Part shown: piece by piece, positions 4,215 through 38,705 of the stretch
Layout: each line of letters begins with the position of its first letter
Numbering within the stretch: the stretch's first letter is position 1
Source: an uncultured Lachnospiraceae bacterium
GTDB lineage: Bacteria; Bacillota; Clostridia; Lachnospirales; Lachnospiraceae
DNA: 45,840 bases
Direction of reading: 5' to 3'
Assembly: GCA_947174495.1 (NCBI GenBank)
Contig: CAMWJC010000019.1
Span: 1 to 45,840 of the forward strand
The notes under the pieces: generated by a model
The model's input: the letters and a program-made list of their open reading frames with translations, nothing else
The model's database searches: none
Told to the model about the DNA's origin: nothing
Translations under genes and position numbers: made by a program

Positions 4215-5912
4215 ATGAAAAGAAATAACGGATATATAAAAGTATATACAAGACTGGTGGACAAAGACAGCTATCCGGAAGGGCTGGCTTACAGCATCCA
4301 TATGGCCGGCAGTCAGGATGGAGAGATATATTTACCTTTAAATAAAAATTATGGCATTCTTTTTGCGAAGGCAGAAATCAGACAGGATGATACCATCTGT
4401 CCAAAGGGGGTTAAGGAGCCTCGGGTTTTTCGCTTAAAAGAAGGGGGATATGGCATCGCAGCAGTAAGAGTCAATGAAAATGGTGAGAGGGAGGAGAGCG
4501 GACAAGGCAAGCTTCTTTTATGGAAAACATGGGATTTTATTTCTTTTGAAAATGCCGGATTGATTGCAGCAAGTGAAGTGGAGCGAATGAGAGCGGATGA
4601 AGAGGCTTTCGGTCAAGCAGGTATTTGTGAAGACAAAGAACAAGAATTTTTAAATCTGGTATCCGACTGTCTGGAAATTGATGCTGACATTCTTGCACGG
4701 GCAGAGGAATACTGGAATCCTGTTTATAATACAGAAATAGTTGTTCCGGAATGTGCTGAAATCTGTTCGGCGGAAGAATTGGAGAGTATAACGGCAACAG
4801 CTATATACTCAGATGGCTCATCTGTTTCCAAAAGAGTGGTATGGGAGGATGAGAAAATTGATTTTTCTGTTTCAGGGATTTATGAGGTGTCGGGTAAAGT
4901 GATGGATAAAAGCTATCCATTTCCGCTGGCTAAGGGGTATGGAGATCCGGTAGTTTTTCGCTGGGAAGAAAAGTGGTATTATATCTCAACTAACGATAAC
5001 GTGGATGATATTGGCATTTATGTCCGGGAGGCAGAAACGGTCAGGGAACTTTTTGGAAATGATGTGACGGAGCACTTAATTCTGGAACAGGATGAGGAGC
5101 GGGAGCTGATTCAGACCTTCTGGGCACCGGAGTTTCATGTGATAGGAGGCGAACTTTATATTCTGTTTGCAGTCAGCAGCAGAGTATGGGGACCTCAATG
5201 TCATTTTATGAAGCTGAAAAAGGGGCAGCCTATTATAAAAGCAGAGAGCTGGGAAGATCCTGTCAGAGTTAGAAAGATGGATGGCAGCTGGCTTTCAGAG
5301 GATGGAATCACATTGGATATGACCTATCTGAAAACAATCCGAGGGTCTTATCTTGTATGGTCTTATAGAAGACACATAGGAACACCGGAAGATACAGGGT
5401 CCATGCTGTATATTGCTGCAGCTGACGAAAGCGAACCATGGAAGCTGGTCAGTGATCCGGTACTGTTGTCCCGTCCGCTTTTTGGGTGGGAAAATGTTGC
5501 AGGAACCATTAACAATGAAGGCCCCTATTCCTTTGTGAAGAATGGAATCGTGTATTTAACATATTCCGGAGGTTCTGCCAACAGTTATACATATGCGTTA
5601 GGACTTCTTACCGCTCAGGAAACAGATGATTTGCTGGATGTTTCATCCTGGAGCAAGCGGTGTACGCCTGTGCTTTCATTTTATTCTGTGGAGGGGGAAT
5701 ATGGACCGGGGCATAACTCCTTTTTTGAAGATGAGGATGGGGATTTGATGATTGCCTACCATGGAGAGACGGGACTAGATCAACATCTGCGTTGTGACGG
5801 TATCCGGCGGGTACATTTCCGCAAAGATGGTTCTCCGGAATTTGGAATGTCAGCAAAGAACGATCTTGATGAGAAATTGACAGCAGTAAAAATGAAAATA
5901 GTGGTAAAGTGA
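4215..5912 (+). CDS. glycoside hydrolase family 43 protein
   Basis: 565 residues, cytoplasmic (no signal peptide), started by ATG after GGAGGCAGGGG. The first ~230 residues contain an accessory beta-rich region. The five-bladed propeller follows: YGDPVVFRW (Asp244, candidate general base), TFWAPEFH (the WAPE motif common in GH43), EDGITLDM, NNEGPYSF (Glu435, candidate general acid) and GPGHNSFF near the end (metal-coordinating His in this family). GH43 enzymes cleave beta-xylosides and alpha-L-arabinofuranosides; the lack of a secretion signal suggests it acts on imported oligosaccharides. No transporter or sugar regulator sits beside it, so it appears monocistronic with its own terminator. 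Confidence 0.88.
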   Translation: MKRNNGYIKVYTRLVDKDSYPEGLAYSIHMAGSQDGEIYLPLNKNYGILFAKAEIRQDDTICPKGVKEPRVFRLKEGGYGIAAVRVNENGEREESGQGKLLLWKTWDFISFENAGLIAASEVERMRADEEAFGQAGICEDKEQEFLNLVSDCLEIDADILARAEEYWNPVYNTEIVVPECAEICSAEELESITATAIYSDGSSVSKRVVWEDEKIDFSVSGIYEVSGKVMDKSYPFPLAKGYGDPVVFRWEEKWYYISTNDNVDDIGIYVREAETVRELFGNDVTEHLILEQDEERELIQTFWAPEFHVIGGELYILFAVSSRVWGPQCHFMKLKKGQPIIKAESWEDPVRVRKMDGSWLSEDGITLDMTYLKTIRGSYLVWSYRRHIGTPEDTGSMLYIAAADESEPWKLVSDPVLLSRPLFGWENVAGTINNEGPYSFVKNGIVYLTYSGGSANSYTYALGLLTAQETDDLLDVSSWSKRCTPVLSFYSVEGEYGPGHNSFFEDEDGDLMIAYHGETGLDQHLRCDGIRRVHFRKDGSPEFGMSAKNDLDEKLTAVKMKIVVK

Positions 5913-5998: not shown

Positions 5999-6099
5999 GC
6001 GTGAAATGCCATAGTCTTATTTACCATATTAAATGCAAAAGCAACAAAATAACGTACGAAAAATAGCGTCAAAAAAGCCGATACTTTATTTCTCTCCTT

Positions 6100-6131
6100 C
6101 TTATTGACAAAAAGTCAATAAGAGATATACT
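6100..6131 (+). promoter_or_regulatory. TetR operator overlapping promoter
   Basis: A perfect inverted repeat, CTTATTGAC and GTCAATAAG separated by AAAAA (6100-6122), contains the -35 hexamer TTGACA (6104-6109). The -10 TATACT lies 16 nt downstream (6126-6131). This is a typical autoregulatory TetR site and would control the regulator and the two surface-protein genes behind it. Confidence 0.75.
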
Positions 6132-6169
6132 ATAATCAGCAGTAAAAGGCTTTGAAAGAAGGATTTATT

Positions 6170-6760
6170 ATGTCGAAAAGAATCAATGACACGCAATTGC
6201 GCAGGCAGCAGATTTTGAAATCTGCAAGAAAGGTCTTTTTGGAAAAAGGTTTTCAGGGAGCAACTATTGATGACATAGCGAAAGAAGAGGGGGTTGTCCG
6301 GGGAACGATCCTGTACCATTACAAGACCAAAGAACTATTAATGGAGGCGGTGCTTGAGGAGGGCAGCAGGGAGTGGAATCCCTTGCTTACTGACTTAGTA
6401 GCAAAGCGTGAGATACCCGTTATGGAACGGATAGACAGGATTTTTACGCTTTGTGAAGCGTATTTTACTGATGAAAAGCTGGAAATGGATCAATATACGC
6501 GAGAACCGGAGGAAATGCGGTTCCTGTTAGACCAAATGAGGCTGAAAAATTTTTATCGGCAGACAGAAGGGCTGGCGGTACTTCTGGAAGAAGGGATTGA
6601 AACAGGTGAGCTGTCATTAGATAATCCCAAAGCCCAGGCAGCTTCCGCTATGTTTGCGGTTTTTGGGATTATGGGAACGGATATCTCACCGGAGGAACTA
6701 AAGGTACAATTGCAGGTGATCAAGGAACAGTTATTATCGTCTTGCGGAAATGTTATATAA
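6170..6760 (+). CDS. TetR/AcrR family transcriptional regulator
   Basis: 196 residues from ATG 6170 (AAGAAGGA upstream). The N-terminal HTH is canonical: RRQQILKSARKVFLEKGFQGATIDDIAKEEGVVRGTILYHYKTKELLMEAVL. The C-terminal ligand domain (about residues 60-196) contains LLEEGIETGELSLDNPKAQAASAMFAVFGIMG. It probably represses its own promoter through the perfect 9-bp palindrome that covers the -35 box. The M60 peptidase gene begins 31 nt after its stop with no terminator between, so regulator, peptidase and cohesin-like protein probably form one transcript. The inducer is unknown. Confidence 0.9.
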   Translation: MSKRINDTQLRRQQILKSARKVFLEKGFQGATIDDIAKEEGVVRGTILYHYKTKELLMEAVLEEGSREWNPLLTDLVAKREIPVMERIDRIFTLCEAYFTDEKLEMDQYTREPEEMRFLLDQMRLKNFYRQTEGLAVLLEEGIETGELSLDNPKAQAASAMFAVFGIMGTDISPEELKVQLQVIKEQLLSSCGNVI

Positions 6761-6791
6761 ACAAAAGCGGCTAAAGAAAAGGAGAAGATGT

Positions 6792-9700
6792 ATGAAACGA
6801 ATGATGGCATGGCTATTGGCGCTTTGTCTGACCGCAACGTGCATCCTTCCGGTTCGGGCAGCAGACACGGGCGGAATGGATTTACTCAAAACAGCGCAGG
6901 AAGATGCGGATTCAGACAGTCAGCAGACCAAAGAAAGAGCGGAAGAGGAAACAGAAGAAGAGAAGGTTGATTCTGAATCAGAAAGCGGTGATGAGACAGA
7001 AGAAGATTCTTGGATGGAAGATGAGACAAAGAATGGGACAGGGGATGAAATTGCGGATGAACCTGAAGAAGGATTCCAGGCGGAAGACATGCCGGATACT
7101 AAGACAGAAGATGAAGCCGGAGATGGGATTCAGATCATGCAGGACTCCCCGGCAGATGATGAAAGCTGGAATGACCGGCAAGTTTTATCAACTGTCACCG
7201 GCGGCGTTGAGGTAATCTTGATGAATGCGCTCCCAATTAGCGGAGACAAAAAGATCAAACTGAAAGTGACGCTGGAAAATGAGGGCAGCAAAGAGGTAAT
7301 CATTGGAAGCGATTCGCAGAAACATGTTACATTGTTTGATAAATTGGAGGCAGGAAATTATCATTTGACGATATCAGAGGCGGAAACGGGTAATTCCGGG
7401 TTTGGCTTTCTTGCCTATGAGCAGGATATCGAAGTTTCCGGCGATATTAAGACGGCGGAGATCTATACCGGTTTTGTGGAATTGGCTGGTATTGAGTATA
7501 CGGAAAATGCACCGCATCCGGGCGCTATGCTGATTGGAGATGTAAACAGGGATGGCATTCTGGATGATATGGACAAGGATGCGATCATGCAGGCAATCAG
7601 CCAGGGGACGGATGGTGCGCTGAAAGGGAACCCGGATCATAATCCTACGGATTTAAATAAGGATGGACAGACTGACCTTGTGGATCTGCAATATTATGTC
7701 AATAGCAAGGCAAGGCTGAATGATAATGCAGATACTACAGCGTCCCTATATAGCAGGGTTTCACCTGATGCAGTGCAGGTAAATATCAATACGAGTACTA
7801 CAGATATTGAGGGAAATCCGGAGAATTTATTGAAAGATAATAATGAAAAGGTAACATTAAAGAGCAAAGGCGGGAATATTTCAGAGGATTTCCCGGTGGA
7901 GATCGGTTTTAACTTGGAAAGTGGCGGCCAGGCGGCACATGAGATGGAGCAGATCACGATTTCCATGGGGGAAAATGGCATTGAAAGCGGAACCCTGACT
8001 GTGATAACGGAAGAGGGGGGGAAGCTGCCTGATTATGTGATTGAAGATGGAAAAGTAGTGTCGGTAAGCCGTATGTCGTCTGTAGGAGAGGAAGGGCAAA
8101 GCGGTTCGTTGACCATTGATCTTGGAGGGCAGACTGCTGTAAAAAAGATCACACTGACAATTACCGGAATGAAATTTGGCGGAAATCTGGCAGAGATTTC
8201 CAAGGTGGAATTTTTAAATGACACGGAAAACAGGATTCCTGCACCTGACATGAATGTACCTGACGGGCTGGGCACAACAGGAGGGAACAAGTCCTTCCGT
8301 GTGACATGGAATAAGCAGGTAAACGTGACCGGATATGAGGTGGAAATCAGCCATAATGGGCAGACGGAAACCAGGCGTGTGGCCTCTAACCAGCTGGAAG
8401 TGAAATCCTTTATGGGAGGAAGGCTGAAAAACGGTGATGTTTATGAAGTCAGAGTACAGTCTGTAAACGGCACATGGACCAGCGGCTACTCAGGCAGTGT
8501 ATCGGCAAGCCCGGTTATTTCAGGTAAGCCTGATGCACCGGATAATCTGAAAGCAGTGGGAGGCTATTGCCGTATTAAACTGACATGGAAGAACATGGAG
8601 GACACGGATTCCTACAATATTTATTATAAGGCGGAGGGAGAAAGCACTTATAGCAAAATCACCGGCGTAGATCAAAACAGGCATACAATTTCAAGTCTGA
8701 AAGATGAAACCAGGTATGAGATTTATGTGACAGGTGTGAATGAGCTGGGAGAAAGCAATCCTTCCATCCATTCGGAAGCACGGACGATTACACTCAAACC
8801 GGCGGAAATGCCTAACTACAAGCTGATCAATGAGTCCAATGGGAAAGGGAAGGTAAGCGCTCATATCGCAAGTGTGACTCACGGAAGAGGTTCTATGGTA
8901 TCCAGTTCTTTGGATACGGATAAAAAAAGCGCCCTTGGGACGGTGGATAAGGATGCGGCATCCCATTATCAGATTTTAGACTGGGATGATGGAGCAAGCT
9001 ATCCTTCGCCGGATAAAGGTTTGCTGTTTACGTTGGACGATTATTATGAAATGAATTATATTGCTTTTGCGGAAGCTGAGGATATCGGCTGGTACAGTGG
9101 TGCATATGTTTACTATTATGACCAGGGACACCCAAATGGAACTGCGGCTCAGAATGTATCTTTATTACAGCGGACCGATGTAAACGGACGGAAGTATTAT
9201 ATGATCAAGCTGGCACAGCCAATTAAGGCAAACAAGGTTAGACTGGGATTTACAAGAGGGAATAACCAGCGTGAGATTATTATTTCCGAAGTGAATTTTT
9301 ACTATTATGACAGTTTGGAAAATGATATTCTTGCCTTATATGCCGATGACCTTCACACAGTACTGAAGGGGGATGTAACGGAGGCGGTCATCGAAGAACT
9401 GCAAAAGCGTCTGGACACCAAAGATGCCAAAAGCGGGGAATATCATCCGGAAAGGGCAATGCTTCAAAGAGAGCTGGACAATGCCAGAGGGCTTTTGTCA
9501 TCAGATTTCCAGGAAGTGGTAGAAATTAATGCAAGTATCACTGCTGCAAAAGACGGGCATCTGGGATTTAGTGGATTGAACGCATGGCAGCCCCTTGGTG
9601 TTACGGCATATGAAGGGGAGCAGATCGTAGTATATGTAGGGCATAATCAGCTAAAAACCGGTTCAGATTCGGCGTTAAAGTTAATTGCAACTCAGTATCA

Positions 9701-12221
9701 CGCGGAAGCAGGCGCATTTGCATCGGAGATTGCCACACTGAAGGTGGGGCGTAATGAGATCACCATCCCTTCCATTCAAAGCCTTGCCTGTGAGGGCGGT
9801 GGAGCCCTTTATGTCCAGTATACCGGGAAGAATGAGAATGACAGATATGCAGTGCGGGTAAGCGGCGGCGCTAAAGAACCTGTACTGAACCTTTATGGCA
9901 TTACGGACCCCGTGCAAAGGATGGGGCGCATTACATCTTATGTAAAAGAATTGGAAGAGCATGTGGCATCTCAGGAGGATCAGCATAAAAAGCTGCATGA
10001 AAGTACGGGGGAAGGAAATAAAGTAAACCGCAGTTATGAGAAAGAAAACTGTATCCTTGGTGCTACGGATATTATGCTGGATCAGATGATGCTGTCCGTA
10101 TCGGCACAGCAGATTCTTGTAGGTCTTGGAAAGGGCAGCACACAGGAGCGTGCAGACAGGCTGGAACAGTCCTTACAGGCTATGGAGGATATGATGAAGC
10201 TGTTTTATCAGCACAAAGGGCTTGGCAGCGATGTGTCAACACCGGCAACAGACCGGCTTCCCGCACAGCACTTGAACATCCGTTATATGAGGATGTTTGC
10301 GGGCGCATTTATGTATGCGGCAGGAAACCATATTGGAATTGAATGGGGATCTGTACCGGGGTTGGCTTCAGCGGTACCGGTACAGGCTGACGCCAATGGA
10401 AAATATATAAGCGGAAGTTATTTTGGCTGGGGAATCAGCCATGAGATTGGACATAACATTAATCAGGGAAGCTACGCCATAGCGGAAGTTACCAACAACT
10501 ATTTTGCACAATTGACTAAGTCTGAGGACAGCAACAGCACAGTGCGCTTTAGTTATGATAAGGTTTATCAAAAAGTTACCTCGAATACGTTGGGAAGACC
10601 TTCTGATGTGTTTATCCATCTTGCTATGTATTGGCAGCTTCACCTTGCCTATGACAGGGATTACAATTATAAGACTTATGATACTTATGAACAGCAGCAG
10701 GCAAATCTGTTTTACGCACGGGTGGATTCTTACAGCAGGAATCCTGCCCAGGCAAAAGGAAATCTAAAATTAAACGGCGGGAGTGACCAGAATATCATGC
10801 GTCTTGCCTGTGCAGCAGCAGAAAAAGATCTGACAGAGTTTTTCATGCGCTGGGGGCTTGTGCCGGATGCGGAAACGCTCAGTTATGCAAAGCAGTTCGA
10901 TAAAGAAGAGAGGGCGCTGTATTACCTGACAGATGACGCGAGAGTCTATGAAATGGAGCATGGCACGGCCGGCTCCATAAAGGGTAGGGATGTGATCAGC
11001 TCAGGAAGTACGGCACAGGTAAGCAGCAGAGTTCCTAACGAAGTGACGATTACCATCCAGGACACAGCAAATCCGGATGTGGTTTTAGGGTATGAGATTG
11101 CCAGATATCAGTATGAAAACGGAGTGCCGGTACGCCAGGTTATTGGGTTTTCTACGGAAACCACTTATGTGGATCATGTGGTAACGGTCAATAACAGGGT
11201 GATGACCTACGAGGTCACAGCAGTGGATCAGTTCGGCTATCGATCCAATAGCCGGAAGATAGGGGATGTCAGGATATCCCATGACGGCAGCCAGGATAAA
11301 TCCATGTGGACAGTGTCTACAAATATGCTTTCTATCAAGGATGAGGCCGGGGAAGCAATAGAAGAAGACCCTTGTGCCCCTGAAAAGGTTTCGGCCGTTT
11401 ACAAGGTAATTGACAATGATTACAAGGGGGATTATGAAGGGATGACAGCAGGCGGTGATGCAGAGATCCTGATTGAAATGAATCAGGTGCTGGAAGTATG
11501 CGGTTTGAAATACACAGTGAAATCAGGTTCGCCTGTTGGCGCGTATGCCATTGAAGTTAGTGTGGATGGCAGTAGCTGGACGACGGTAAAGATAGGAAAT
11601 TTTGAAGAGAAAACAGGAAGCCAGACTGTGTATTTTGAAAATGCGGATAAGGCTCCATGGGTATGTACCTATGATGCTGCTTATGTAAGGTTAAAGGCAA
11701 AAGGACAGACGAGAATGTGCATTGCGGAAGTGGATCTGCTTGGACCTTCCGGGGACAGTATTTCTTTTGGTGTAAGGGAAAACGATACTCAAGGGGCAGT
11801 AGGAATCTTAAGCGAGGATTATACCTATGAGAGTGGGAAGACTATTCCTAAGGATTCGATTGTCTTTACCGGAAGCTATAAGGGAAATCCTGCCTACAAT
11901 GTGGTGGTTCTCTATGATGAAGAGGGAAATATTGTAGGGGGCGTGGATGAAGAAAATGTATTAAAATCAGAGCAGATCATTCTGGCAAATGTGCCTGAAA
12001 ATGGAATGCTTGGCGAGGTAAGTGACGGTATTTGGATCTATTGGATCGAGCCTGACCGGATACCCGGCGACCTGAAAGGAAAAACCGTGCGCGCACAGCT
12101 TTACCGTGTGGACAATGCATTGACGAATGAAGGACAAAGGCTTGTAAGTGATACCATGCCTATGCGAATACCGGATACGCTGGAACGGATTACTTTGAAA
12201 AGTATAGCAAACGACAAATAA
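6792..12221 (+). CDS. secreted M60 (enhancin/mucinase-type) metallopeptidase with dockerin-like module
   Basis: 1809 residues. The start is ATG 6792 with GGAGAAG upstream, giving a clear signal peptide (MKRMMAWLLALCLTATC..VRAADT). In order: a strongly acidic linker (~25-125); a dockerin-like module at ~249-306 with two calcium-loop repeats (GDVNRDGILDD and DLNKDGQTDLVDL); two fibronectin III-like domains (~485-576, ~581-667); a discoidin-like region (~715-836); the M60 catalytic domain with HEIGH (His1217-Glu1218, His1221) and a further Glu1232 matching HExxH-x(8,28)-E; and a second discoidin/F5-8C-like region (~1550-1651). M60 peptidases cleave mucin-type O-glycoproteins. There is no sortase motif or C-terminal membrane segment, so retention at the cell may rely on the dockerin and the next gene product. 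Confidence 0.9.
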   Translation: MKRMMAWLLALCLTATCILPVRAADTGGMDLLKTAQEDADSDSQQTKERAEEETEEEKVDSESESGDETEEDSWMEDETKNGTGDEIADEPEEGFQAEDMPDTKTEDEAGDGIQIMQDSPADDESWNDRQVLSTVTGGVEVILMNALPISGDKKIKLKVTLENEGSKEVIIGSDSQKHVTLFDKLEAGNYHLTISEAETGNSGFGFLAYEQDIEVSGDIKTAEIYTGFVELAGIEYTENAPHPGAMLIGDVNRDGILDDMDKDAIMQAISQGTDGALKGNPDHNPTDLNKDGQTDLVDLQYYVNSKARLNDNADTTASLYSRVSPDAVQVNINTSTTDIEGNPENLLKDNNEKVTLKSKGGNISEDFPVEIGFNLESGGQAAHEMEQITISMGENGIESGTLTVITEEGGKLPDYVIEDGKVVSVSRMSSVGEEGQSGSLTIDLGGQTAVKKITLTITGMKFGGNLAEISKVEFLNDTENRIPAPDMNVPDGLGTTGGNKSFRVTWNKQVNVTGYEVEISHNGQTETRRVASNQLEVKSFMGGRLKNGDVYEVRVQSVNGTWTSGYSGSVSASPVISGKPDAPDNLKAVGGYCRIKLTWKNMEDTDSYNIYYKAEGESTYSKITGVDQNRHTISSLKDETRYEIYVTGVNELGESNPSIHSEARTITLKPAEMPNYKLINESNGKGKVSAHIASVTHGRGSMVSSSLDTDKKSALGTVDKDAASHYQILDWDDGASYPSPDKGLLFTLDDYYEMNYIAFAEAEDIGWYSGAYVYYYDQGHPNGTAAQNVSLLQRTDVNGRKYYMIKLAQPIKANKVRLGFTRGNNQREIIISEVNFYYYDSLENDILALYADDLHTVLKGDVTEAVIEELQKRLDTKDAKSGEYHPERAMLQRELDNARGLLSSDFQEVVEINASITAAKDGHLGFSGLNAWQPLGVTAYEGEQIVVYVGHNQLKTGSDSALKLIATQYHAEAGAFASEIATLKVGRNEITIPSIQSLACEGGGALYVQYTGKNENDRYAVRVSGGAKEPVLNLYGITDPVQRMGRITSYVKELEEHVASQEDQHKKLHESTGEGNKVNRSYEKENCILGATDIMLDQMMLSVSAQQILVGLGKGSTQERADRLEQSLQAMEDMMKLFYQHKGLGSDVSTPATDRLPAQHLNIRYMRMFAGAFMYAAGNHIGIEWGSVPGLASAVPVQADANGKYISGSYFGWGISHEIGHNINQGSYAIAEVTNNYFAQLTKSEDSNSTVRFSYDKVYQKVTSNTLGRPSDVFIHLAMYWQLHLAYDRDYNYKTYDTYEQQQANLFYARVDSYSRNPAQAKGNLKLNGGSDQNIMRLACAAAEKDLTEFFMRWGLVPDAETLSYAKQFDKEERALYYLTDDARVYEMEHGTAGSIKGRDVISSGSTAQVSSRVPNEVTITIQDTANPDVVLGYEIARYQYENGVPVRQVIGFSTETTYVDHVVTVNNRVMTYEVTAVDQFGYRSNSRKIGDVRISHDGSQDKSMWTVSTNMLSIKDEAGEAIEEDPCAPEKVSAVYKVIDNDYKGDYEGMTAGGDAEILIEMNQVLEVCGLKYTVKSGSPVGAYAIEVSVDGSSWTTVKIGNFEEKTGSQTVYFENADKAPWVCTYDAAYVRLKAKGQTRMCIAEVDLLGPSGDSISFGVRENDTQGAVGILSEDYTYESGKTIPKDSIVFTGSYKGNPAYNVVVLYDEEGNIVGGVDEENVLKSEQIILANVPENGMLGEVSDGIWIYWIEPDRIPGDLKGKTVRAQLYRVDNALTNEGQRLVSDTMPMRIPDTLERITLKSIANDK

Positions 12222-12282
12222 ATGTGCCGTTTACTATATTATGAAACAGAGTAGACAAGCATATAATGGCAGGTGATAGATA

Positions 12283-13518
12283 GTGAAACGGATTCAGAGT
12301 AAGATATATCTGGGGTTAGTGATAATAGGTCTGTCCGCTCCGCTGCGGGTACATGCAGCGGGGCAGGATTTGGTAGTGCTTGGGCAGGACGGAAATCAGG
12401 TAGCTGTATCACTGGAGATGAGCAATGCAACGGAAGAAAAGATTACCACAGTGTCCATATCTTTGGAGGTCAAGACCGATGATCCGAGTCAGGTAACGGT
12501 GGGGTTTCAGTTTGCCCCGGAGCTTAGCGGAACGGAGCATGGCTTTGTATATAACGAGGATACCGGCAGGCTGGATATCTATGTGGCTTCTTCCAAAAGC
12601 CTGTTCAGTGAGGAAAGACTGAACCTTGGGAATGTTCAGGTGCAGCCGACAGACCCGGAACGGAGCATGGCGGCGGATATCAGTTATTGCAAAAATTCTT
12701 TTCAGACTGCTAACGGTTCTTACGGAGATAAGACACCGGTAGTAGAGGGAGAAGTTGCGCCTGTGAGCATACAGGTTGGCAATGGCACATTAGTTCCTGA
12801 TGCGGGTTCGTCAGGAGTAGGAAACGCAGGCACAAGTTCAGGAAACAGCAACAAAGGAAATTCAGTAACCGGCAGTCTGGAGGGCGGTAACCGGGATCAG
12901 GGACTATATGATGAGACGACACGTTTTACCAATGACCCGGCCAGCGCCCAGAAGATTGATTCTTCAATCATTAAGCGAGACATAGCGGAAACTCTTCAGC
13001 ACAATTTAAGTGCCGGGGCAGCGTCAACAATTGCTGGGAATCATGGAGCAGGCGCGGGCAGTACCGGACTGGCTAAGGCGAGAGGGAAGGTATCTGTGAT
13101 TTCTCCGGAAAATGGTCCGGCAAGCATTCTCGTATCGAAGGGGAACACTGGGACTTCAGACGGAGATCAGCTTGGCAGCTTTTTGAGTGGATTATCAGGT
13201 GAAAATTTTGATGGAAATACAGGCAATATCCTAGGAGAAGGAACTTCTTTGGAAGATGGCCAGGAAGAAATTATGTTGGATCAGAAAAACGGTGGTGCAA
13301 TAGATAATAGAAAGGGTGAAAGAAGAAAACAGATTATTATCATTAGTACAATTTTGGCAGGTTTGATCATTATAGCAGGGGGCGTGCTCCTGTTGCTTGT
13401 GAAAAGGACGGGCTATCCAATTGCAGGCGCTAAGAAGAAAAAGAAGAAGAAAAGACGCCGGAGAAAGAAGAAGCCTGCAAGGAGGAGGCGTGTGCGGAAG
13501 AAGTTATATAGACAATGA
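12283..13518 (+). CDS. membrane-anchored protein with cohesin-like ectodomain and poly-basic tail
   Basis: 411 residues with a GTG start (weak ribosome site), signal peptide (MKRIQSKIYLGLVIIGLSAP..VHAAG), an N-terminal beta-sandwich (~25-150) whose pattern VAVSLEMSNATEEKITTVSI, GFVYNEDTGRLDIYVASS and LNLGNVQVQP resembles cohesin domains, a long Gly/Ser/Asn-rich spacer (~150-345), one transmembrane helix (~352-375, IIIISTILAGLIIIAGGVLL) and a cytoplasmic tail in which 24 of the last 38 residues are Lys or Arg. It lies 61 nt behind the dockerin-bearing M60 gene and is followed by a terminator. Role inferred: a membrane scaffold that captures the peptidase. The cohesin assignment is by pattern only. 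Confidence 0.75.
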   Translation: MKRIQSKIYLGLVIIGLSAPLRVHAAGQDLVVLGQDGNQVAVSLEMSNATEEKITTVSISLEVKTDDPSQVTVGFQFAPELSGTEHGFVYNEDTGRLDIYVASSKSLFSEERLNLGNVQVQPTDPERSMAADISYCKNSFQTANGSYGDKTPVVEGEVAPVSIQVGNGTLVPDAGSSGVGNAGTSSGNSNKGNSVTGSLEGGNRDQGLYDETTRFTNDPASAQKIDSSIIKRDIAETLQHNLSAGAASTIAGNHGAGAGSTGLAKARGKVSVISPENGPASILVSKGNTGTSDGDQLGSFLSGLSGENFDGNTGNILGEGTSLEDGQEEIMLDQKNGGAIDNRKGERRKQIIIISTILAGLIIIAGGVLLLLVKRTGYPIAGAKKKKKKKRRRRKKKPARRRRVRKKLYRQ

Positions 13519-13600: not shown

Positions 13601-13639
13601 AAACACCCCAAAATTCATCATTTGAATTCTGGGGTGTTT
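13601..13639. terminator. bidirectional terminator between M60 operon and tRNA-Leu
   Basis: AAACACCCCAAAATTC (13601-13616) pairs almost perfectly with GAATTCTGGGGTGTTT (13624-13639); the A/T-rich ends let it act on both convergent transcripts. Confidence 0.85.
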
Positions 13640-29944: not shown

Positions 29945-30015
<71 letters not shown>

Positions 30016-30018
30016 TAC

Positions 30019-30052
30019 AAAGAGCCTTGATTTATCAGGGTTCTTTCTTTTT
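30019..30052 (+). terminator. terminator after tRNA-Gly
   Basis: AAAGAGCCTTGAT (30019-30031) pairs with ATCAGGGTTCTTT (30034-30046), allowing two G-U pairs, followed by CTTTTTT. It overlaps the last codons of the convergent integrase. Confidence 0.75.
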
Positions 30053-31084
30053 GTGTTGCATTTCGTGTTGCATGTTTTCGAAATGCTTAAAGGTAATATC
30101 TTGAAATTGTTTATTGTAAGTGTCAATTGTTCCTCTGTATATGTCTTTTAAGGTTTTGTCAGATGTCCAGCCTCCACGTTGCATGATATACTGATCAGGA
30201 ACACCCAAAGCGTGCATAATACTGGCGGCATAGTGCCTGAGATCATGAAATCTAAAATGCGTTATCCCGAGTTTAGTGAGAGTTCTTCCATGCCTTATAC
30301 TGATTCGGTCAGGATTTATTGATACAACATATCCTTCTTTCGGAAGCATGTCAATAATAAATTGTGGCATATTAATGTCCCGTGCACTGGACGAATTCTT
30401 GACAAACGGTTTTAATACAAATTGATTATTGCTGTCTTTTACTTTTGCTTGCCTTATATGCAGGGTATTTCCGGTTATATGGTTTGCGTCAAGTCCGCAG
30501 ATTTCAGAACGACGCAGCGTGCCGAAAGCTGACAAACAGCTTGCAATCAGCATATCATTATCATTTTCAGAATAATATCTGATAAGTTCCTGAATCTCTT
30601 CATCATTCGGGACATATCCGTCATATCTGATTTTTGACGGAAGAGTAACATTCACAGAAAAAGTTTCCAGATTGTCTTTAATAACCGCATTTAGAAATCC
30701 ATAGGCATTCCGGACAGATTTCGGAGAATGATTCTCAGAGTAACGATTAATCCACCTTTGAAGGGTAATTTTGTTTAATTCAGACAATTTTTTGTCTTCA
30801 ATATCACTGAATGCGCTATTACGAAGCTGCTCATATCCCCGTATAGTAGAAGGGGAAAGTACTGATTTTTTAAGATTGCAGTATTCTTTCATGGCTTCAC
30901 ACAATTTTATGTCTTTTGAGAATTCATTTTCTTCTTTTTGATTGCAGACATATTGTGTTGCCAGCAATTCCGCTTCTTTTTTCGTGTTAGCGGTAAAAGA
31001 CTTATACTTCCGCTTTCCTTTTTCCGTGCCTACATAAATAAGGCATCTGTATTTTCCTGATGGTAGTTTTTTTGCTGTGGCCAT
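30035..31084 (-). CDS. int: prophage tyrosine-recombinase integrase
   Basis: 349 residues from ATG 31084, preceded by AAGGAGGAGGAGG. N-terminal arm-binding domain (LPSGKYRCLIYVGTEKGKRKYKSF), SAM-like core-binding domain, then the catalytic domain with Arg in GTLRRSEICGL, HFRFHDLRHYAA (HxxR), the GGWTS region and the nucleophile Tyr near TLKDIYRGT. It would insert the prophage in the adjacent tRNA-Gly. It is transcribed toward the tRNA and lies downstream of a minus-strand terminator that isolates it from the NYN gene. Confidence 0.95.
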   Translation of the reverse strand: MATAKKLPSGKYRCLIYVGTEKGKRKYKSFTANTKKEAELLATQYVCNQKEENEFSKDIKLCEAMKEYCNLKKSVLSPSTIRGYEQLRNSAFSDIEDKKLSELNKITLQRWINRYSENHSPKSVRNAYGFLNAVIKDNLETFSVNVTLPSKIRYDGYVPNDEEIQELIRYYSENDNDMLIASCLSAFGTLRRSEICGLDANHITGNTLHIRQAKVKDSNNQFVLKPFVKNSSSARDINMPQFIIDMLPKEGYVVSINPDRISIRHGRTLTKLGITHFRFHDLRHYAASIMHALGVPDQYIMQRGGWTSDKTLKDIYRGTIDTYNKQFQDITFKHFENMQHEMQHKKKEP

Positions 31085-31111
31085 AGCCTCCTCCTCCTTA
31101 AAATTGGACAT

Positions 31112-31143
31112 AAAAATGCCCGGTGACTTGATTTTGCACCGGG
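31112..31143 (-). terminator. terminator after the NYN gene
   Basis: On the minus strand CCCGGTG...CACCGGG (31119-31125 with 31137-31143) is followed by CATTTTTA. It separates the NYN transcript from the integrase. Confidence 0.65.
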
Positions 31144-31224
31144 AAAATGATACAATTTATTCTGTCATGAACAAGTTGTATCGGAATTCCCGGTATACCT
31201 AACGCCTTGGTGTGCTGCATCAGG

Positions 31225-31266
31225 GCGGTTTTTCTGTTTGACAGGTTTTTGTATATTGCTTATATT
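31225..31266 (+). repeat. direct repeat copy A of the antisense-RNA promoter region
   Basis: About 41 bases starting GCGGTTTTTCTGTTTGACAG and ending TGTATATTGCTTATA, nearly identical to 32187-32229. Copy A keeps TTGACA but its -10 (TATATT) is poorer. It points into the 3' end of the NYN gene, antisense. Confidence 0.75.
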
Positions 31267-31958
31267 TCTTTATGTGTGGCATTCATAGACGGTGTTCTTA
31301 TTCCATCGATATGTTCAAATAAATCATCTTTTATAGTTGAACGCATTGGATCAAGAATAAAATCGGTTCCTTCACGGCGCGCTTGTTTAGCAGCAGGAAC
31401 AAAATCGCTATCACCAGATATCAAAATAATCTGATTAACTTGTCTCTTAAAAACCAAAGATGATATATCAACGCCTATGCACATATCAACGCCCTTTTGC
31501 TCCAAATTTAATTCCAAGTCATTGATCGTTATATCACTGACATTAATATCGCCGCGAAGAAGTTTTTTGGTAGGTTCATGTTTGAGTGAATAGTGTACTT
31601 GCGTATCGCTAATTCGCCCCATGCGAAGTGCAAACTTCCGATGATGCTTTAATTCCTTTAAAAATTCGGTCATCCAGGAAAATTCTGCTGTACGTTCAAG
31701 GGAAACGGTCTTTTGTGTAACGGGATTATAAATATTTTTGGCAATTGGTGGACAATCATAATAAAATACACGGTATAGATATCGATTTTCATAGTTGTCT
31801 TTTAGATGCCTATAACAATAGTCATTAAGCTCGTTGGCTCGTTCTGCTGGAGATTTATTTCCCCAAAGGGCTTTCGCTCGTTTGCGATAAAATCCGCCAT
31901 CTACTAAAATGGCTGTTTTGACAGGATGTTTGTCAAAATTTTTTCTTTTGTTATTCAT
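31260..31958 (-). CDS. NYN-domain (LabA/DUF88-like) protein
   Basis: 232 residues from ATG 31958, after GGAGG. The PIN-like NYN nuclease fold shows AILVDGGFYRKR with the first catalytic Asp, GVDMCIGVDISSL with acidic residues, and QIILISGDSDFVPAAKQARREGTDFIL with the SGDSDF motif. Members are often metal-dependent RNases; some act in phage or abortive-infection contexts. It sits in the prophage's accessory block between integrase and type I toxin. A minus-strand promoter (32061-32089) gives it a ~90-nt structured leader. Confidence 0.88.
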   Translation of the reverse strand: MNNKRKNFDKHPVKTAILVDGGFYRKRAKALWGNKSPAERANELNDYCYRHLKDNYENRYLYRVFYYDCPPIAKNIYNPVTQKTVSLERTAEFSWMTEFLKELKHHRKFALRMGRISDTQVHYSLKHEPTKKLLRGDINVSDITINDLELNLEQKGVDMCIGVDISSLVFKRQVNQIILISGDSDFVPAAKQARREGTDFILDPMRSTIKDDLFEHIDGIRTPSMNATHKEI

Positions 31959-32060
31959 ATTTCCTCCACAAAAATACCCCAAGCTTTGTCAACTTCCCTT
32001 ATAGTGGGAGGACTACCGCTAGGGGTATGTTCATACAACGTAACTTTTTGTTACACAACT

Positions 32061-32089
32061 ATAATATGCCCTTTACGGTAAAAAATCAA
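32061..32089 (-). promoter_or_regulatory. promoter of the NYN gene
   Basis: On the minus strand TTGATT and TATTAT are 17 nt apart. The leader contains nested stems ATACCCC/GGGGTAT and CTTCCC/GGGAG (about 31974-32033). Confidence 0.6.
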
Positions 32090-32104
32090 CACTTTTGATT
32101 AAAA

Positions 32105-32124
32105 TTTTTACATATATGTAAAAA
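32105..32124. repeat. 20-bp perfect palindrome
   Basis: TTTTTACATATATGTAAAAA, just upstream of the NYN promoter; possible operator. Nothing else recognisable in 32125-32164. Confidence 0.5.
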
Positions 32125-32164
32125 ACTATTTTTTGTCAAAACGCCGTAATGGATTAATCATTAA

Positions 32165-32182
32165 TTACATTAGTTCCAGTAC
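32165..32182. repeat. 18-bp direct repeat, copy 1
   Basis: TTACATTAGTTCCAGTAC recurs exactly at 33088-33105, each time near a GCGGTTT segment, suggesting duplication during assembly of the accessory block. Confidence 0.7.
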
Positions 32183-32186
32183 GGTA

Positions 32187-32229
32187 GCGGTTTTTCTGTT
32201 TGACAGAGTTTTGTATATTGCTTATAATA
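32187..32229 (+). promoter_or_regulatory. strong promoter of the antisense RNA (repeat copy B)
   Basis: TTGACA (32200-32205), 17-nt spacer, TATAAT (32223-32228): full consensus. Nearly the same ~41 bases occur at 31225-31266. Confidence 0.85.
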
Positions 32230-32234
32230 TACTT

Positions 32235-32350
32235 AACAAGACAGCCGGAAGGTGAGTGCGATTCACCCGACCCGGCGAAGATCTATAACGAAACTATTAA
32301 GAAATAGCCGTCAGTTCTGGCCAGAGAACAGGACGGCTATTTCTTATTTT
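32235..32350 (+). ncRNA. antisense RNA antitoxin of a type I toxin-antitoxin locus
   Basis: Transcription from the consensus promoter would start near 32235 and end at a strong terminator: AAGAAATAGCCGTC (32299-32312) with GACGGCTATTTCTT (32332-32345), an inner stem GTTCT/AGAAC and a T-run. No open frame lies in it. A 5' hairpin GGTGA...TCACC is present. It overlaps the 3' end of the opposing toxin gene (32337-32420), the TxpA/RatA-like arrangement. Confidence 0.8.
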
Positions 32351-32420
32351 TTATATTCAGAATCGCTACAATCAGTAAAGCAATGCTCACTACTAAACTC
32401 AATTCCTCATATGTACTCAT
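32337..32420 (-). CDS. 27-residue hydrophobic type I toxin (Hol-Tox-like)
   Basis: MSTYEELSLVVSIALLIVAI plus a short NIKNKK tail: a single membrane helix with a polar start and basic end, very like the putative holin-like toxin family of Firmicutes (MSTYEA...KK). GGAAGGTGGTGA gives a strong ribosome site just upstream. Its 3' end is covered by the antisense RNA on the plus strand. Expected role: membrane-damaging peptide kept silent by the RNA, stabilising the prophage. Confidence 0.85.
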   Translation of the reverse strand: MSTYEELSLVVSIALLIVAILNIKNKK

Positions 32421-32537
32421 AATAATCACCACCTTCCACAAGACTCGGAACGGGTGAGAGCACGTCCCCCGGCTGCCCAGTGAAGCATATTATGTTATCA
32501 AGGTGTGGTGGAGCATGGGTGGTTTTCCTCAGAATGG

Positions 32538-33029
32538 CTATTGAATTTTTTCTATTTCTCCTGTGTCAATACTAACATGATATTCACTAAGTAACATACC
32601 AGAACAAGCTAATGCTGCATCATGTTCTTCTTTGTTAACATATTCCATAGTGGTCACATCTAAAAGATTTCCCATAACAGTTATGCTTGTAGTAGTATTT
32701 AGAGTGAAATTAATAATGATATGAATTTCACTGTCTGATTTGAAATAATAATTATAGTAATCTACAGCATATTCTTCTATATTGATATTTTCAGCAATTC
32801 TTGCTAATCTCCAATTTCCAGTTACATCGTTTCGATATGTATCACTAAACACTACATTGAACCCGAGGGGATCTTTTTTATCCGTTACGGATTCGACAGA
32901 AGAATCAGGTGTGGTTTCAGATAAAGAATCATCTCCACAGGCTGAACCAATGACACCGAGGATAACTAATACTCCGAAAGCAATAAGAACTGTTTTTAGA
33001 CAGCTTCCTTTTTTCTTTTCTTTTTTCAT
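32538..33029 (-). CDS. putative lipoprotein
   Basis: 163 residues: Lys-rich start (MKKEKKKGS), a hydrophobic helix (TVLIAFGVLVILGVIGSAC) whose end fits a lipobox (IGSAC), a Ser/Thr/Asp linker, then an ~100-residue extracellular domain with DTYRNDVTGNWRLARIAEN and IHIIINFTLNTTTSI. I do not recognise the domain. GAGGGA upstream of ATG. Located in the prophage lysogeny block beside the Ltp-like protein, so expression from the lysogen is plausible. Confidence 0.75.
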   Translation of the reverse strand: MKKEKKKGSCLKTVLIAFGVLVILGVIGSACGDDSLSETTPDSSVESVTDKKDPLGFNVVFSDTYRNDVTGNWRLARIAENINIEEYAVDYYNYYFKSDSEIHIIINFTLNTTTSITVMGNLLDVTTMEYVNKEEHDAALACSGMLLSEYHVSIDTGEIEKIQ

Positions 33030-33087
33030 TTAGATAAATCCCTCTTTTCTTTAGCTTACTAAAACACCGTAGCGGTTTATCAATTTT

Positions 33088-33105
33088 TTACATTAGTTCC
33101 AGTAC
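33088..33105. repeat. 18-bp direct repeat, copy 2
   Basis: Exact copy of TTACATTAGTTCCAGTAC at 32165-32182, lying between the lipoprotein and Ltp-like genes. Confidence 0.7.
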
Positions 33106-33119
33106 TGGGCGTTTTTCAG

Positions 33120-34187
33120 TTAAAAACATTTCTCGCATTTTCCATATCCGGCATTAATCGCATATTCAAGAGAAACCTGACGAGCTTTATTAGGGTTCAT
33201 TTGTCCGCAATGATCAATACTGTGATATTTTTCCCCTGTTTCAGATAGCCATACAGTATCAGTAACCGATGCAGTTGCTGGGGTTTCAGGATAGTTATAT
33301 GAATTAAAATTGTTTTCGTTTGAATTATAAATACTTTCAGATTGAATCGGGACATCAGCGATAAAGCCGGTGCTGGAAGTTCCTTGCTCAACGGGCATTG
33401 CATATAAAGCAGAGCTGGAAGCATTGCTGATTCCCATATTGCTAACAGCATAATCAGCTTCTGATGGAGTAAATTTTTCTCCGTATTCAGAAATAAGCTG
33501 TTCATATATTTCATCAGGTAGCATATTCATAGTGTTTTGGTAATTTTTTGCAGTTTGTAGAGCATTAAAATTCCAGTCAGCCGTAAGATTATCTATAGCA
33601 TATTGCGCTTCTGATGGTGTAAATTTTTCGCCATAGTCTGAAATGAGCTGGTCATAAATCGCTGCTTTAGACATATACATTGTATCACTGTAATTTTTGG
33701 CTTTTTGTAATGCATTTAAGTTCCAATCAGTGTCTAAATTATCAATTGCATATTGTGCAGCATCGGCAGGGAGATTTTCCCCATACGCTGATATAAGTTG
33801 ATCATAGATAGCTGCTTTTGACATGTACATCATATCACTGTAATTCATGGCTTTAGACAGAGCTGATGCATATTCTTGAGGAACATCATTGTTTTTATCT
33901 GGCTCCGGAGCTGGTGTTAATGACATTGGTTCTGCGCTGCTATTGTTACTTAATGCATCAGTATCAGATACAAAATTATTATTCTGATCTGTACTGAAAG
34001 AGAAAGTTCCTATAATGTTATTATCTGCTTGAGCAACGACTGTATTATTATCAGTTGTGCGCTTAGGAGAAAAACCACCATATATTTGAGTGTAAGCTAC
34101 TATAAAACAGACCAGAGAAGCAGCGCAAACCCCTATTACCGCAAGGAATGCTGTCAATAAATTTAATAGTTTAGTTGTGTTTTTCAT
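33120..34187 (-). CDS. Ltp-family superinfection-exclusion protein candidate
   Basis: 355 residues from ATG 34187 (GGGAG upstream). One N-terminal membrane helix (LLTAFLAVIGVCAASLVCFIVAY) is followed by a disordered linker and three tandem ~47-residue Ltp helix-turn-helix repeats (AL.KA.NYS..M.MSK.AIYDQLIS.YGE.....AQYAIDNL..DWN). The C-terminus is a ~45-residue module VWLSETGEKYHSIDHCGQMN..YGKCEKCF with His/Cys residues suited to metal binding. The Ltp domain of phage TP-J34 blocks DNA injection by superinfecting phages. Here it is anchored by a helix rather than an obvious lipobox, and the extra C-terminal module is unusual. Confidence 0.85.
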   Translation of the reverse strand: MKNTTKLLNLLTAFLAVIGVCAASLVCFIVAYTQIYGGFSPKRTTDNNTVVAQADNNIIGTFSFSTDQNNNFVSDTDALSNNSSAEPMSLTPAPEPDKNNDVPQEYASALSKAMNYSDMMYMSKAAIYDQLISAYGENLPADAAQYAIDNLDTDWNLNALQKAKNYSDTMYMSKAAIYDQLISDYGEKFTPSEAQYAIDNLTADWNFNALQTAKNYQNTMNMLPDEIYEQLISEYGEKFTPSEADYAVSNMGISNASSSALYAMPVEQGTSSTGFIADVPIQSESIYNSNENNFNSYNYPETPATASVTDTVWLSETGEKYHSIDHCGQMNPNKARQVSLEYAINAGYGKCEKCF

Positions 34188-34227
34188 AAATGGTTCTCCC
34201 AGCAAATTAGAACTTTTTCTTTAGTTT

Positions 34228-34767
34228 TTATAAATTGAGTATCTGCTTTTTCTTGAGTTCAAATTCTCTTTGGGTAATTATTCCTTTATCTAATAATTTT
34301 TTTAAGTCTTCAAGTTCTTTATAGTCACCAGAAGTAGACGTAGATTTTGTATTTTTTAATTTGAAGATCAGCTCATGGATTAAGGAATATAGCTTATCTG
34401 AGTTGGTGTTTTCTAAGGCTACATTAAAGCGTTCTTTCATACTATCAACTGTAATGACACCAAAGGCAATTCCTTTTTTGTAGGTAATATCATTAACATT
34501 ATCCAATAATATTGTCTGTGTCACTTCTCCGACCATATGTTTTTGTGCCATAATAATTCGCCTGTCAGTTATTGCATAAGCAAAATTGTTGTCATGCTTG
34601 GTCAGAGATACATAATTGTGTAAGCCCATAAAACATAAAATAACATTTTCACCAGGGGAAAGTTGTTTTTCCACTACACCAAAATGTTTAAGAGTCCAAG
34701 AATCTGTATTGCTCTTTCCAAATTTATTTTTTTTACAAAAATCATACATTTCTTTTGCGGTCTTCAT
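34228..34767 (-). CDS. PH-domain protein with C-terminal SHOCT motif
   Basis: 179 residues. The middle (~40-130) has the bacterial PH-like signature ENVILCFMGLHN..., FAYAITDRRIIMAQKHMVGE, ILLDNVNDITYKKGIAFGVITVDS. The tail ELEDLKKLLDKGIITQREFELKKKQIL is a SHOCT motif, often an oligomerisation or targeting helix pair. Such proteins are frequent in Firmicutes prophages near the repressor; their role is unclear. Same leftward transcription unit as neighbours. Confidence 0.85.
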   Translation of the reverse strand: MKTAKEMYDFCKKNKFGKSNTDSWTLKHFGVVEKQLSPGENVILCFMGLHNYVSLTKHDNNFAYAITDRRIIMAQKHMVGEVTQTILLDNVNDITYKKGIAFGVITVDSMKERFNVALENTNSDKLYSLIHELIFKLKNTKSTSTSGDYKELEDLKKLLDKGIITQREFELKKKQILNL

Positions 34768-34799
34768 TAGTCATGCCTTTCTTTAGATGCTTGGTTTCT

Positions 34800-35048
34800 T
34801 TATGCAATACCTATTTCAGCCGATAATTCGATGTTATGAGCTTGCCTTTCAATTTCGCTTATATCTGATTTCTCAAAATCATTTCCTAAAATATGTTTCA
34901 TAGCGTGCATAAAGGCTTTTTGTTGTGCTTCCTTAGATAATGAAGTTTCAATAAATATTGTGTAGCTGCCATCATTATTTTCACTGACAGCTTCCTTTGT
35001 TTTTGTATCTGGAAAAGTAGTAAGTTGTACTTGATAATCAATCATCAT
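34800..35048 (-). CDS. degenerate ImmA-like protein
   Basis: 82 residues from ATG 35048 (GGAACA upstream), overlapping the repressor stop by 11 nt. SLSKEAQQKAFMHAMKHILGNDFEKSDISEIERQAHNIE resembles the core helix of ImmA/IrrE peptidases, where FLHELGHxLxxDF carries HExxH. Here the motif reads HAMKH: both His remain but the catalytic Glu is absent. Possibly an inactive partner that binds the repressor, or a relative with another chemistry. Confidence 0.65.
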   Translation of the reverse strand: MMIDYQVQLTTFPDTKTKEAVSENNDGSYTIFIETSLSKEAQQKAFMHAMKHILGNDFEKSDISEIERQAHNIELSAEIGIA

Positions 35049-35424
35049 AACGCTGTTCCTTTCTCTTAAGAGCAAGAAGCATATTATGCACAGCCATTAA
35101 ATCTTCTGGTTCCGCATTACGGGCTGTATCAAAAAGAAGTCGCAATTCTTTATTTTCAAAAATATCTTGTGCGATTTTGGTGGTTTCTTCATTGAGATAG
35201 TAGGTCTCCCCACCTTCTTTTTCTTCACCAGTTTTTAGGTATTCCATGGATACACCTAAAAATGATGCTATCTTTTGCATTTTTTCATCTTTTGGTTGAT
35301 AACGTCCGGCTTTCCAGTCGGAGAACGTTGATTTGGTTATACCTGCACCAATAGCAACAGTGCTATCTTTGTAGCCAAATTTATCCCTCACCTTGCAGTA
35401 AATTTTATAAGAATCTGTACTCAT
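35038..35424 (-). CDS. CI-type phage repressor (XRE family HTH)
   Basis: 128 residues with an N-terminal Cro/CI HTH (GAGITKSTFSDWKAGRYQPKDEKMQKIASFLGVSMEYL, about residues 27-65) and a short C-terminal region, without an S24 autoprotease domain. It is the first gene of the leftward lysogeny block, transcribed from the minus-strand promoter 35553-35581. It probably binds the repeated TTCAGAAATCAG operators in the 35.47-35.60 kb switch. Induction may go through the adjacent ImmA-like protein if that still functions. Confidence 0.92.
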   Translation of the reverse strand: MSTDSYKIYCKVRDKFGYKDSTVAIGAGITKSTFSDWKAGRYQPKDEKMQKIASFLGVSMEYLKTGEEKEGGETYYLNEETTKIAQDIFENKELRLLFDTARNAEPEDLMAVHNMLLALKRKEQRYDD

Positions 35425-35466
35425 ATCTTTTCCTCCCTAAAAAATTTAAATTAAGAATAAAAGATA

Positions 35467-35601
35467 TTGACAATTACAGATTTCTGTACTATGATAATTT
35501 TACAAAGTTCAGAAATCAGTACTCAATATATTTTATACTTGTCCACAAACTTAGTATAACTGATTTCTGAACTTGTTTCAATACAAAGTTCGGAAAGGAG
35601 G
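35467..35601. promoter_or_regulatory. lysis-lysogeny switch: two face-to-face promoters and repeated operators
   Basis: Plus promoter: TTGACA (35467-35472), 17 nt, TATGAT (35490-35495). Minus promoter: TTGAAA (35576-35581), 17 nt, TATACT (35553-35558). Operators: ACAGATTTCTGT (palindrome inside the plus spacer), AGTTCAGAAATCAGTACT (about 35516-35523 and preceding bases) and ACTGATTTCTGAACTT inside the minus spacer, plus a half site AGTTCGGAA (35587-35595). The promoters converge, so the initial ~45 nt of both transcripts overlap. Confidence 0.75.
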
Positions 35602-35608
35602 ACGTATA

Positions 35609-35815
35609 TTGTATAAAAAATATGAAGAACTTCGTGATAAGCAAGGAGTAACAGACTATAGGGTATCAAAGGACACAGGTATACCTAAGTCAACTTTTTC
35701 AGAATGGAAGTCTGGGAGAAGCAATCCCAAAGTTGGCAAACTTAAAATCCTTGCTGACTATTTCGGAGTATCTATTGACTATTTCTTAGATGAACCCACA
35801 AAGGACACCCAATAG
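35609..35815 (+). CDS. Cro-like XRE regulator
   Basis: 68 residues from a TTG start, chosen because AAAGGAGG sits 7 nt upstream. HTH: YEELRDKQGVTDYRVSKDTGIPKSTFSEWKSGRSNPKVGKLKILADYFGVSIDYFLDE. First gene of the rightward early block, opposite the CI-type repressor; its recognition helix (IPKSTFSEWKSG) resembles that of CI (ITKSTFSDWKAG), so both likely read the same operators. Confidence 0.92.
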   Translation: MYKKYEELRDKQGVTDYRVSKDTGIPKSTFSEWKSGRSNPKVGKLKILADYFGVSIDYFLDEPTKDTQ

Positions 35816-35902
35816 GTTGGATACAACCTTTAATAAAAGAATAAATGGGTAGTGCGAAGATAGCAATAGAACAATAAGTAGTTAATCGTGGAGCAGTGGT
35901 GG

Positions 35903-35959
35903 TTATTCTGGGTATCTATTGATTATGTCTTAGATGATATCAAAGGAAGTGTCCAATAA
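35903..35959 (+). pseudogene. 3' remnant of a second Cro-like HTH gene
   Basis: The frame LFWVSIDYVLDDIKGSVQ-stop parallels the end of the preceding gene (YFGVSIDYFLDEPTKDTQ-stop), while the preceding ~85 bases have no intact frame. It looks like the tail of a duplicated or recombined HTH gene. Confidence 0.55.
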
Positions 35960-35985
35960 ACAGGACGTAGAGGGAGGTGATAAGA

Positions 35986-36237: not shown

Positions 36238-36240
36238 AAA

Positions 36241-36489: not shown

Positions 36490-36540
36490 TTATGTTTATT
36501 GCCTATGTCCTCATTATGGCATAGGGGAAAGGAAAAGTCA

Positions 36541-36726: not shown

Positions 36727-36732
36727 GAGAAA

Positions 36733-36972: not shown

Positions 36973-37002
36973 TATGCAAGAGCATAACGGAGGAAGTGTG
37001 AG

Positions 37003-38703: not shown

Positions 38704-38705
38704 GT

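Follow-up and report, generated by a model that had tools for sequence, protein, structure and literature searches.

Gene content of the locus

The window, meaning the whole 45,840-nucleotide stretch of DNA analysed, is contig C19 of a draft genome of 2.89 Mb (112 contigs, 78% complete), and records close to its M60 locus in the named collection include Parablautia muri and P. intestinalis, so that the host probably belongs to Parablautia or to a closely related group of Lachnospiraceae. A plasmid search gave no match. Between positions 6100 and 13518, three genes running in the same direction encode a TetR-type regulator, an M60 metallopeptidase, and an anchor protein, with a terminator-like hairpin behind them:

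6170 to 6760, forward strand: tetR, local regulator of 196 aa from the ATG at 6170 (Pfam TetR_N, E 8.1e-13)
6792 to 12221, forward strand: M60 metallopeptidase, in a frame open from 6750, with its likely start at 6792 and a signal peptide
12283 to 13518, forward strand: surface anchor protein of 411 aa, GTG start
13601 to 13639, forward strand: terminator-like hairpin 3' of the operon (-21.8 kcal/mol, z -7.2)

The starts of tetR at 6170 and of the M60 gene at 6792 are likely ones, judged by eye, each having a Shine-Dalgarno-like stretch ahead of it. The three genes are presumably co-transcribed. Directly upstream of them, positions 4215-5912 encode a GH43-like enzyme with a Big_4 match. Elsewhere in the window, a tRNA-Gly is followed by an integrase gene, a drop in GC, DUF1351, and an SNF2/DNA-methylase protein (29945-45083), which looks like an integrated element.

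The M60 metallopeptidase and its dockerin

The M60 protein, whose residues are numbered here from the ORF start at 6750, consists of a signal peptide, an acidic low-complexity stretch, an X-like module, a dockerin, F5/8-type-C and fn3 modules, the M60 domain, and a second F5/8-type-C module. Three of these parts are located as follows:

7191 to 7511, forward strand: PEGA / carboxypeptidase-regulatory-like (X-like) module, immediately 5' of the dockerin
7536 to 7709, forward strand: dockerin, with calcium loops DVNRDGILDDMD and DLNKDGQTDLVD
10401 to 11159, forward strand: catalytic part, with HEIGH at 10440-10454 and the third Glu at 10485-10487, matching PF13402 and, over aa 1218-1470, M60-type chains of the PDB

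Peptidases of family M60 (PF13402) cleave O-glycoproteins and possess an M60 domain with an HExxH motif and a downstream Glu; the domain, the motif, and the Glu are present in the window protein. Pfam places PF13402 at aa 1226-1369 (E 2.5e-12) and also recognizes the F5/8-type-C and fn3 modules, and among the PDB chains that match aa 1218-1493 are some named ZmpC and ZmpA glycopeptidase and O-glycopeptidase BcM60C. The residues H1231, E1232, H1235, and E1246 are invariant across 17 aligned M60 orthologues, and the substrate is probably O-glycosylated mucin. A C-terminal transmembrane helix was found neither in the window protein (best 19-residue hydropathy 0.15) nor in 78 relatives from the best 80 of 541 confirmed loci (19-residue hydropathy at most 1.22). 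The signal peptide, the HEIGH motif with its third Glu, and the missing cell anchor, all proposed in a preceding sequence-only reading, are thus borne out.

Dockerins of type I bind cohesins and consist of a pair of calcium loops of 12 residues (D-x-N-x-D-G...D), both with a helix behind them. Both loops can be read directly from the window M60 sequence. Its Pfam dockerin match is weak and below the Pfam cut-off (E 0.27 at full length, 0.024 for the segment); among the 17 orthologues, Dockerin_1 (PF00404) matches 16 at E up to 1 (best 1e-8) and the loop residues D264, D275, D301, and D312 are invariant, which upholds the dockerin that the earlier reading had noticed. Solved dockerins also rank first in the PDB for a 17-row dockerin profile (8ajy, E 1.6e-4). 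A dockerin HMM built from the 17 orthologues, several of which come from the same genomes as the proteins scored, matches all 78 M60 ORFs of at least 1400 aa among the best 80 of 541 confirmed loci, with a worst E value of 1.2e-7. The dockerin is more conserved than the preceding X-like module (mean distance 0.50 vs 0.66), which PEGA recognizes in 7 of the 17 orthologues (E at most 1, lowest 6e-7), the window protein itself being unmatched.

The anchor protein and its modes of attachment

The second protein starts with a signal peptide, read from the translation, and continues with an all-beta N-domain, a long spacer rich in Ser, Gly, and Asn, a transmembrane (TM) helix, and a K/R-rich tail:

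12355 to 12780, forward strand: cohesin-like beta-sandwich domain (eleven strand segments by AlphaFold2; HMM and profile tests)
13330 to 13401, forward strand: transmembrane helix, aa ~350-373, hydropathy 2.8
13432 to 13515, forward strand: polybasic cytoplasmic tail, 28 mostly basic residues read from the translation

With signal peptide, helix, and basic tail all present, the anatomy agrees with the membrane anchor originally suggested. The spacer (12900-13300, aa ~205-340) is supposedly disordered; the stretches GLYDETTRF, KVSVVSPENGP, and, before the TM helix, EEI.LDQKNGG are conserved in the genus.

The mode of attachment is exchanged among the 78 partners found in the best 80 of 541 confirmed loci. 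A TM helix was scored in 68 of them, comprising 26 with a polybasic tail (10 or more K/R residues), 23 with a short tail, and 19 with TG[DEN] before the helix, a loose rule for sortase-like partners given that the motif occurs in 6.7% of random 30-residue spacer windows. Of the ten partners in which no TM helix scored, five are cut by contig ends and five are whole ORFs, with one lying at the threshold. Two further partners carry choline-binding repeats, and in three genomes (L233, L234, and L235) the partner domain is fused C-terminal of M60. The L233 and L235 fusions contain two Dockerin_1 stretches each, and the retention of the N-terminal dockerin beside a second, C-terminal one makes self-docking or chain formation conceivable. 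The L234 fusion lacks its N-terminus, which is cut off, and by eye its C-terminal end resembles a dockerin repeat. A constant N-domain with varying attachment is the pattern expected of an anchor.

Assignment of the partner domain

Cohesins are nine-stranded beta-sandwiches of the jelly-roll type. AlphaFold2, run on aa 25-174 with 18 sequences, returned an all-beta model (mean pLDDT 86.1, pTM 0.82) whose eleven strand segments can be paired, going by their linear succession, with the nine strands of a cohesin. Pfam, NCBIfam, and PDB sequence searches of the partner gave no usable cohesin match. The Pfam cohesin model matches neither the window anchor nor anything in its own genome (none at E 10) and recognizes 1 of 40 domain members, at E 0.014; a PDB profile search with the partner domain likewise found no cohesins. 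Of the earlier claim of a cohesin-like beta-sandwich, then, the all-beta fold stands on a confident model, while the cohesin part goes unmatched by Pfam and reaches 40% at best in profile comparisons.

These comparisons were made with hhalign, and deeper profiles strengthened the signal only partially. A 40-row partner profile gave 1.9% against all 30 cohesins and 0.3-12% against subsets of them, where a control segment gave 25%. A 109-row profile was collinear with two cohesin sets at 40.2% (104 columns) and 32.3% (74 columns) and gave 0.4-1.8% against four smaller subsets, with nine M60-segment controls at 0.1-10.2%. Against 84 non-redundant cohesins, the 109-row profile reached 20.1%, or 40.0% with query and target swapped (nine controls 0.3-2.1%), the 40-row profile 7.3%, and an 18-row profile 33.7%; comparisons of cohesins with cohesins span 12.4 to 99.8%. 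When partner domains were scored against their own shuffles, three cohesin HMMs yielded AUC values of 0.92, 0.93, and 0.79 and five other domain models 0.50-0.74, the sample being 74 mutually related and hence non-independent domains. Two divergent partners, L239 and L240, are unmatched by partner HMMs or Pfam and have N-domains that look cohesin-like by eye.

Cohesins thus give the strongest family-level signal among the models compared, and the partner domain is likely a cohesin. It seems fairly probable that such domains form a separate cohesin branch dedicated to M60 O-glycopeptidases and missed by current family models, in which the socket would be kept and its attachment exchanged between membrane, sortase-like, choline-binding repeats, and fusion with a second dockerin, in records labelled Lachnospiraceae, Oscillospiraceae, Erysipelotrichaceae, and Eggerthella.

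Other cohesins and dockerins in pair-bearing genomes

Cellulosomes and mucinolysomes combine a scaffoldin that bears several cohesins with many dockerin enzymes. In the window's own genome, where parts may be missing at 78% completeness, one cohesin-like domain, one dockerin, and no Pfam cohesin were found. A Dockerin_1 search at E 0.05 over 17 pair-bearing genomes returned matches in 15, inside M60 in 14; G006 alone has its match solely outside M60, G004 adds a weak second match, and G021 and G032 have none at this threshold. A Pfam cohesin above cut-off occurs in one of the 17 (G006), and four others show sub-threshold matches (best E 9.3e-4). G006, which also contains the M60-anchor pair, has a single open frame of 1363 aa in which a dockerin and a cohesin, both of the standard kind, are combined (C23:24089-24604).

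This distribution bears on the idea that the two proteins belong to a larger assembly for mucin degradation, similar to a cellulosome. Limousia is described as having mucinolysomes that include dockerin peptidases (PMC12997984), and the second C-terminal dockerins of the L233 and L235 fusions (by HMM or Pfam) and of L234 (by eye), as well as the G006 frame, would suit such a complex. However, in 14 of the 17 genomes Dockerin_1 matches nothing outside M60 apart from the weak second match in G004, and the partner carries a single cohesin-like domain, of which each of two sampled genus members has one copy, which makes membership of a larger assembly highly unlikely.

Linkage of the two genes

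Of 37 same-genus genomes, 16 contain the M60 gene; these are also the 16 that contain the anchor gene, and the two are adjacent in all of them. In a wider set of 194 relatives, the anchor protein matches 20, namely the 16 of the genus strongly, G035 weakly, and three in other genera. The G035 match covers the anchor tail only, and no anchor gene was found there; two of the other-genus matches, G049 and G078, sit beside M60, in G078 as a partner domain next to an M60 fragment. Among 299 family genomes, the partner domain is present in 28, M60 in 33, and both in 27. In 26 of these 27, the two lie no more than ~2 kb apart on one strand of a single contig, and three of the 26 have them in one reading frame; the other genome is G078 with its M60 fragment. 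G391 has an additional partner domain, which adjoins a second M60. The 28th genome with a partner-domain match, G107 (E 6.5e-4), was set aside as looking like chance, as the match falls in a cysteine-motif frame of 75 aa that has no M60 in its vicinity. Of the six family genomes with M60 and no partner profile match, four have M60 proteins without a dockerin motif and without a partner domain beside them, one of these proteins having a TM helix of its own; in the other two (G353 and G290), M60 carries a dockerin and its secreted neighbour is unrecognized by the HMMs.

Of 541 confirmed loci in the named collection, the best 80 were examined, and the partner domain adjoins M60 in 78 of them, which is beyond chance. 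The two exceptions end at contig edges, L088 inside M60 and L093 ~250 bases after it. In these loci the median distance from one ORF to the other is 21.5 bases (from -175 to 247), and adjacency holds down to M60 identities near 41-45%. A survey of co-occurrence had been put forward as a check on the pair, and its outcome, both in the genus and in the wider collection, is that the genes do not separate freely.

Linkage is compatible with more than one kind of contact. The partner could be an adhesin or another beta-sandwich anchor that holds M60 in another way, for example through the X-like module or a CBM, with the dockerin binding nothing here or something else. The weak cohesin homology of the partner would fit this view, as would a mirror-tree analysis of 73 pairs, in which the dockerin (partial correlation 0.21) is not singled out over a neighbouring M60 segment (0.24). 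On the other hand, a dockerin is present in every one of the 78 M60 ORFs scored from the best 80 of 541 loci and is better conserved than the X-like module; 16 of the 17 pair genomes, four of them with sub-threshold matches, offer no Pfam cohesin above cut-off as an alternative dockerin target; and of the families with which the partner was compared, cohesins give the best signal. Such other contact is accordingly improbable, and docking of the dockerin on the partner domain is preferred.

The tetR gene and its putative operator

The product of tetR contains the TetR_N helix-turn-helix recognized by Pfam. Two elements lie upstream of the gene:

6099 to 6123, unstranded: probable TetR operator, palindrome TCTTATTGAC-AAAAA-GTCAATAAGA, which overlaps the -35 box
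6104 to 6131, forward strand: promoter-like TTGACA-16-TATACT, 11 of 12 consensus positions

The promoter was called by consensus match only, with 18 such sites in the region vs 13.9 expected. In all nine tetR-bearing loci, the tetR promoter has the pattern CTTATTGACAAAAAGTCA[AG]TAA across its -35 box, with diverging flanks; these loci are not independent, since L050 and L051 are nearly identical. Its symmetry is perfect, with no mismatch, in four of the nine. The pattern has exactly one exact match in the window's own genome and in each of eight tetR-bearing relatives, its reversed control has none in 37 genomes, and when the 136 bp upstream were shuffled by mononucleotides 1000 times, a perfect palindrome with 9-bp arms arose in 4 of the shuffles. 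A match with two mismatches lies on another contig in G026. In L052 (G030), a pair without tetR, a two-mismatch copy is retained upstream of M60.

Of the 17 M60-anchor pairs examined, 9 have a tetR gene upstream of M60, so that control by TetR is a feature of a single subclade, and TetR as a general part of the pair was dropped. The single operator proposed at the outset holds up as a conserved palindrome over the -35 box in the window subclade; its extension to the pair at large does not.

The tetR operon of this subclade is also what would be expected if the two products were merely secreted proteins of one pathway, without mutual binding, and their neighbourhood reflected shared regulation only. 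Nevertheless, adjacency persists in the 8 of 17 pairs without tetR, at the low M60 identities noted above for the best 80 of 541 loci, and as a fusion in three genomes, and M60 would then be left without visible means of attachment. Shared regulation alone therefore has only a very slim chance of being the correct explanation.

Proposed mechanism and relation to known systems

Taken together, the best reading, to which we assign a probability of roughly three in four, is a private one-enzyme cohesin-dockerin pair that is predicted to tether an M60 O-glycopeptidase. Briefly, the M60 enzyme and the anchor would both be exported, the latter being retained in the membrane through the helix and basic tail at its C-terminus and presenting the cohesin-like domain on a long flexible spacer. 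The anchorless M60 would be caught via its own dockerin, preceded by the X-like module, and would work at the cell surface, where its CBM-like modules may hold a glycoprotein, probably O-glycosylated mucin, for cleavage at the zinc site. In the window subclade, the tetR-M60-anchor operon would be repressed by the local TetR at a single palindromic operator over the -35 box.

In cellulosomes, secreted enzymes with a two-loop calcium dockerin are combined with a separate cohesin surface protein that is attached to membrane or wall. The window pair resembles cellulosomal cohesin-dockerin pairs and anchoring scaffoldins in having a secreted dockerin enzyme and a separate surface protein with a predicted cohesin-like beta-sandwich. 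It differs in comprising one enzyme and one socket encoded by adjacent genes, in its substrate, which is probably a host glycoprotein, in a putative cohesin below Pfam detection, and in an internal dockerin placed between X-like and CBM-like modules. Single cohesin modules of non-cellulosomal, glycoprotein-degrading proteins are found in Clostridium perfringens (X82). According to PMC12997984, a GH domain is present as well in each of the five cohesin proteins of that species, whereas the cohesin-like domain of the window sits on a non-catalytic membrane anchor.

The Limousia mucinolysome, as presented in the same paper (PMC12997984), is similar in that a gut bacterium possesses dockerin-bearing peptidases and a cohesin protein with a wall-anchoring motif. 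With its 3-6 scaffoldins and up to 22 dockerin CAZymes, this multi-scaffoldin system contrasts with the private pair of the window, and the terms 'M60' and 'Lachnospiraceae' are absent from the main text of that paper. The M60-like/PF13402 peptidases surveyed in PMC3267712 share with the window protein an HExxH zinc peptidase, CBM32 and fn3 modules, and an occurrence in host-associated microbes; that survey reports a dockerin in 2 of 415 M60-like proteins, and its main text does not contain the word 'cohesin'. A search of open-licence papers found no account of the M60-anchor gene pair.

If this reading is true, Gram-positive gut commensals would gain a defined way to keep a mucin-cutting enzyme on the cell outside cellulosomes. 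The pair would also provide a small docking system with dozens of natural variants, open to test-tube study, and the cohesin family would be wider than present models detect.
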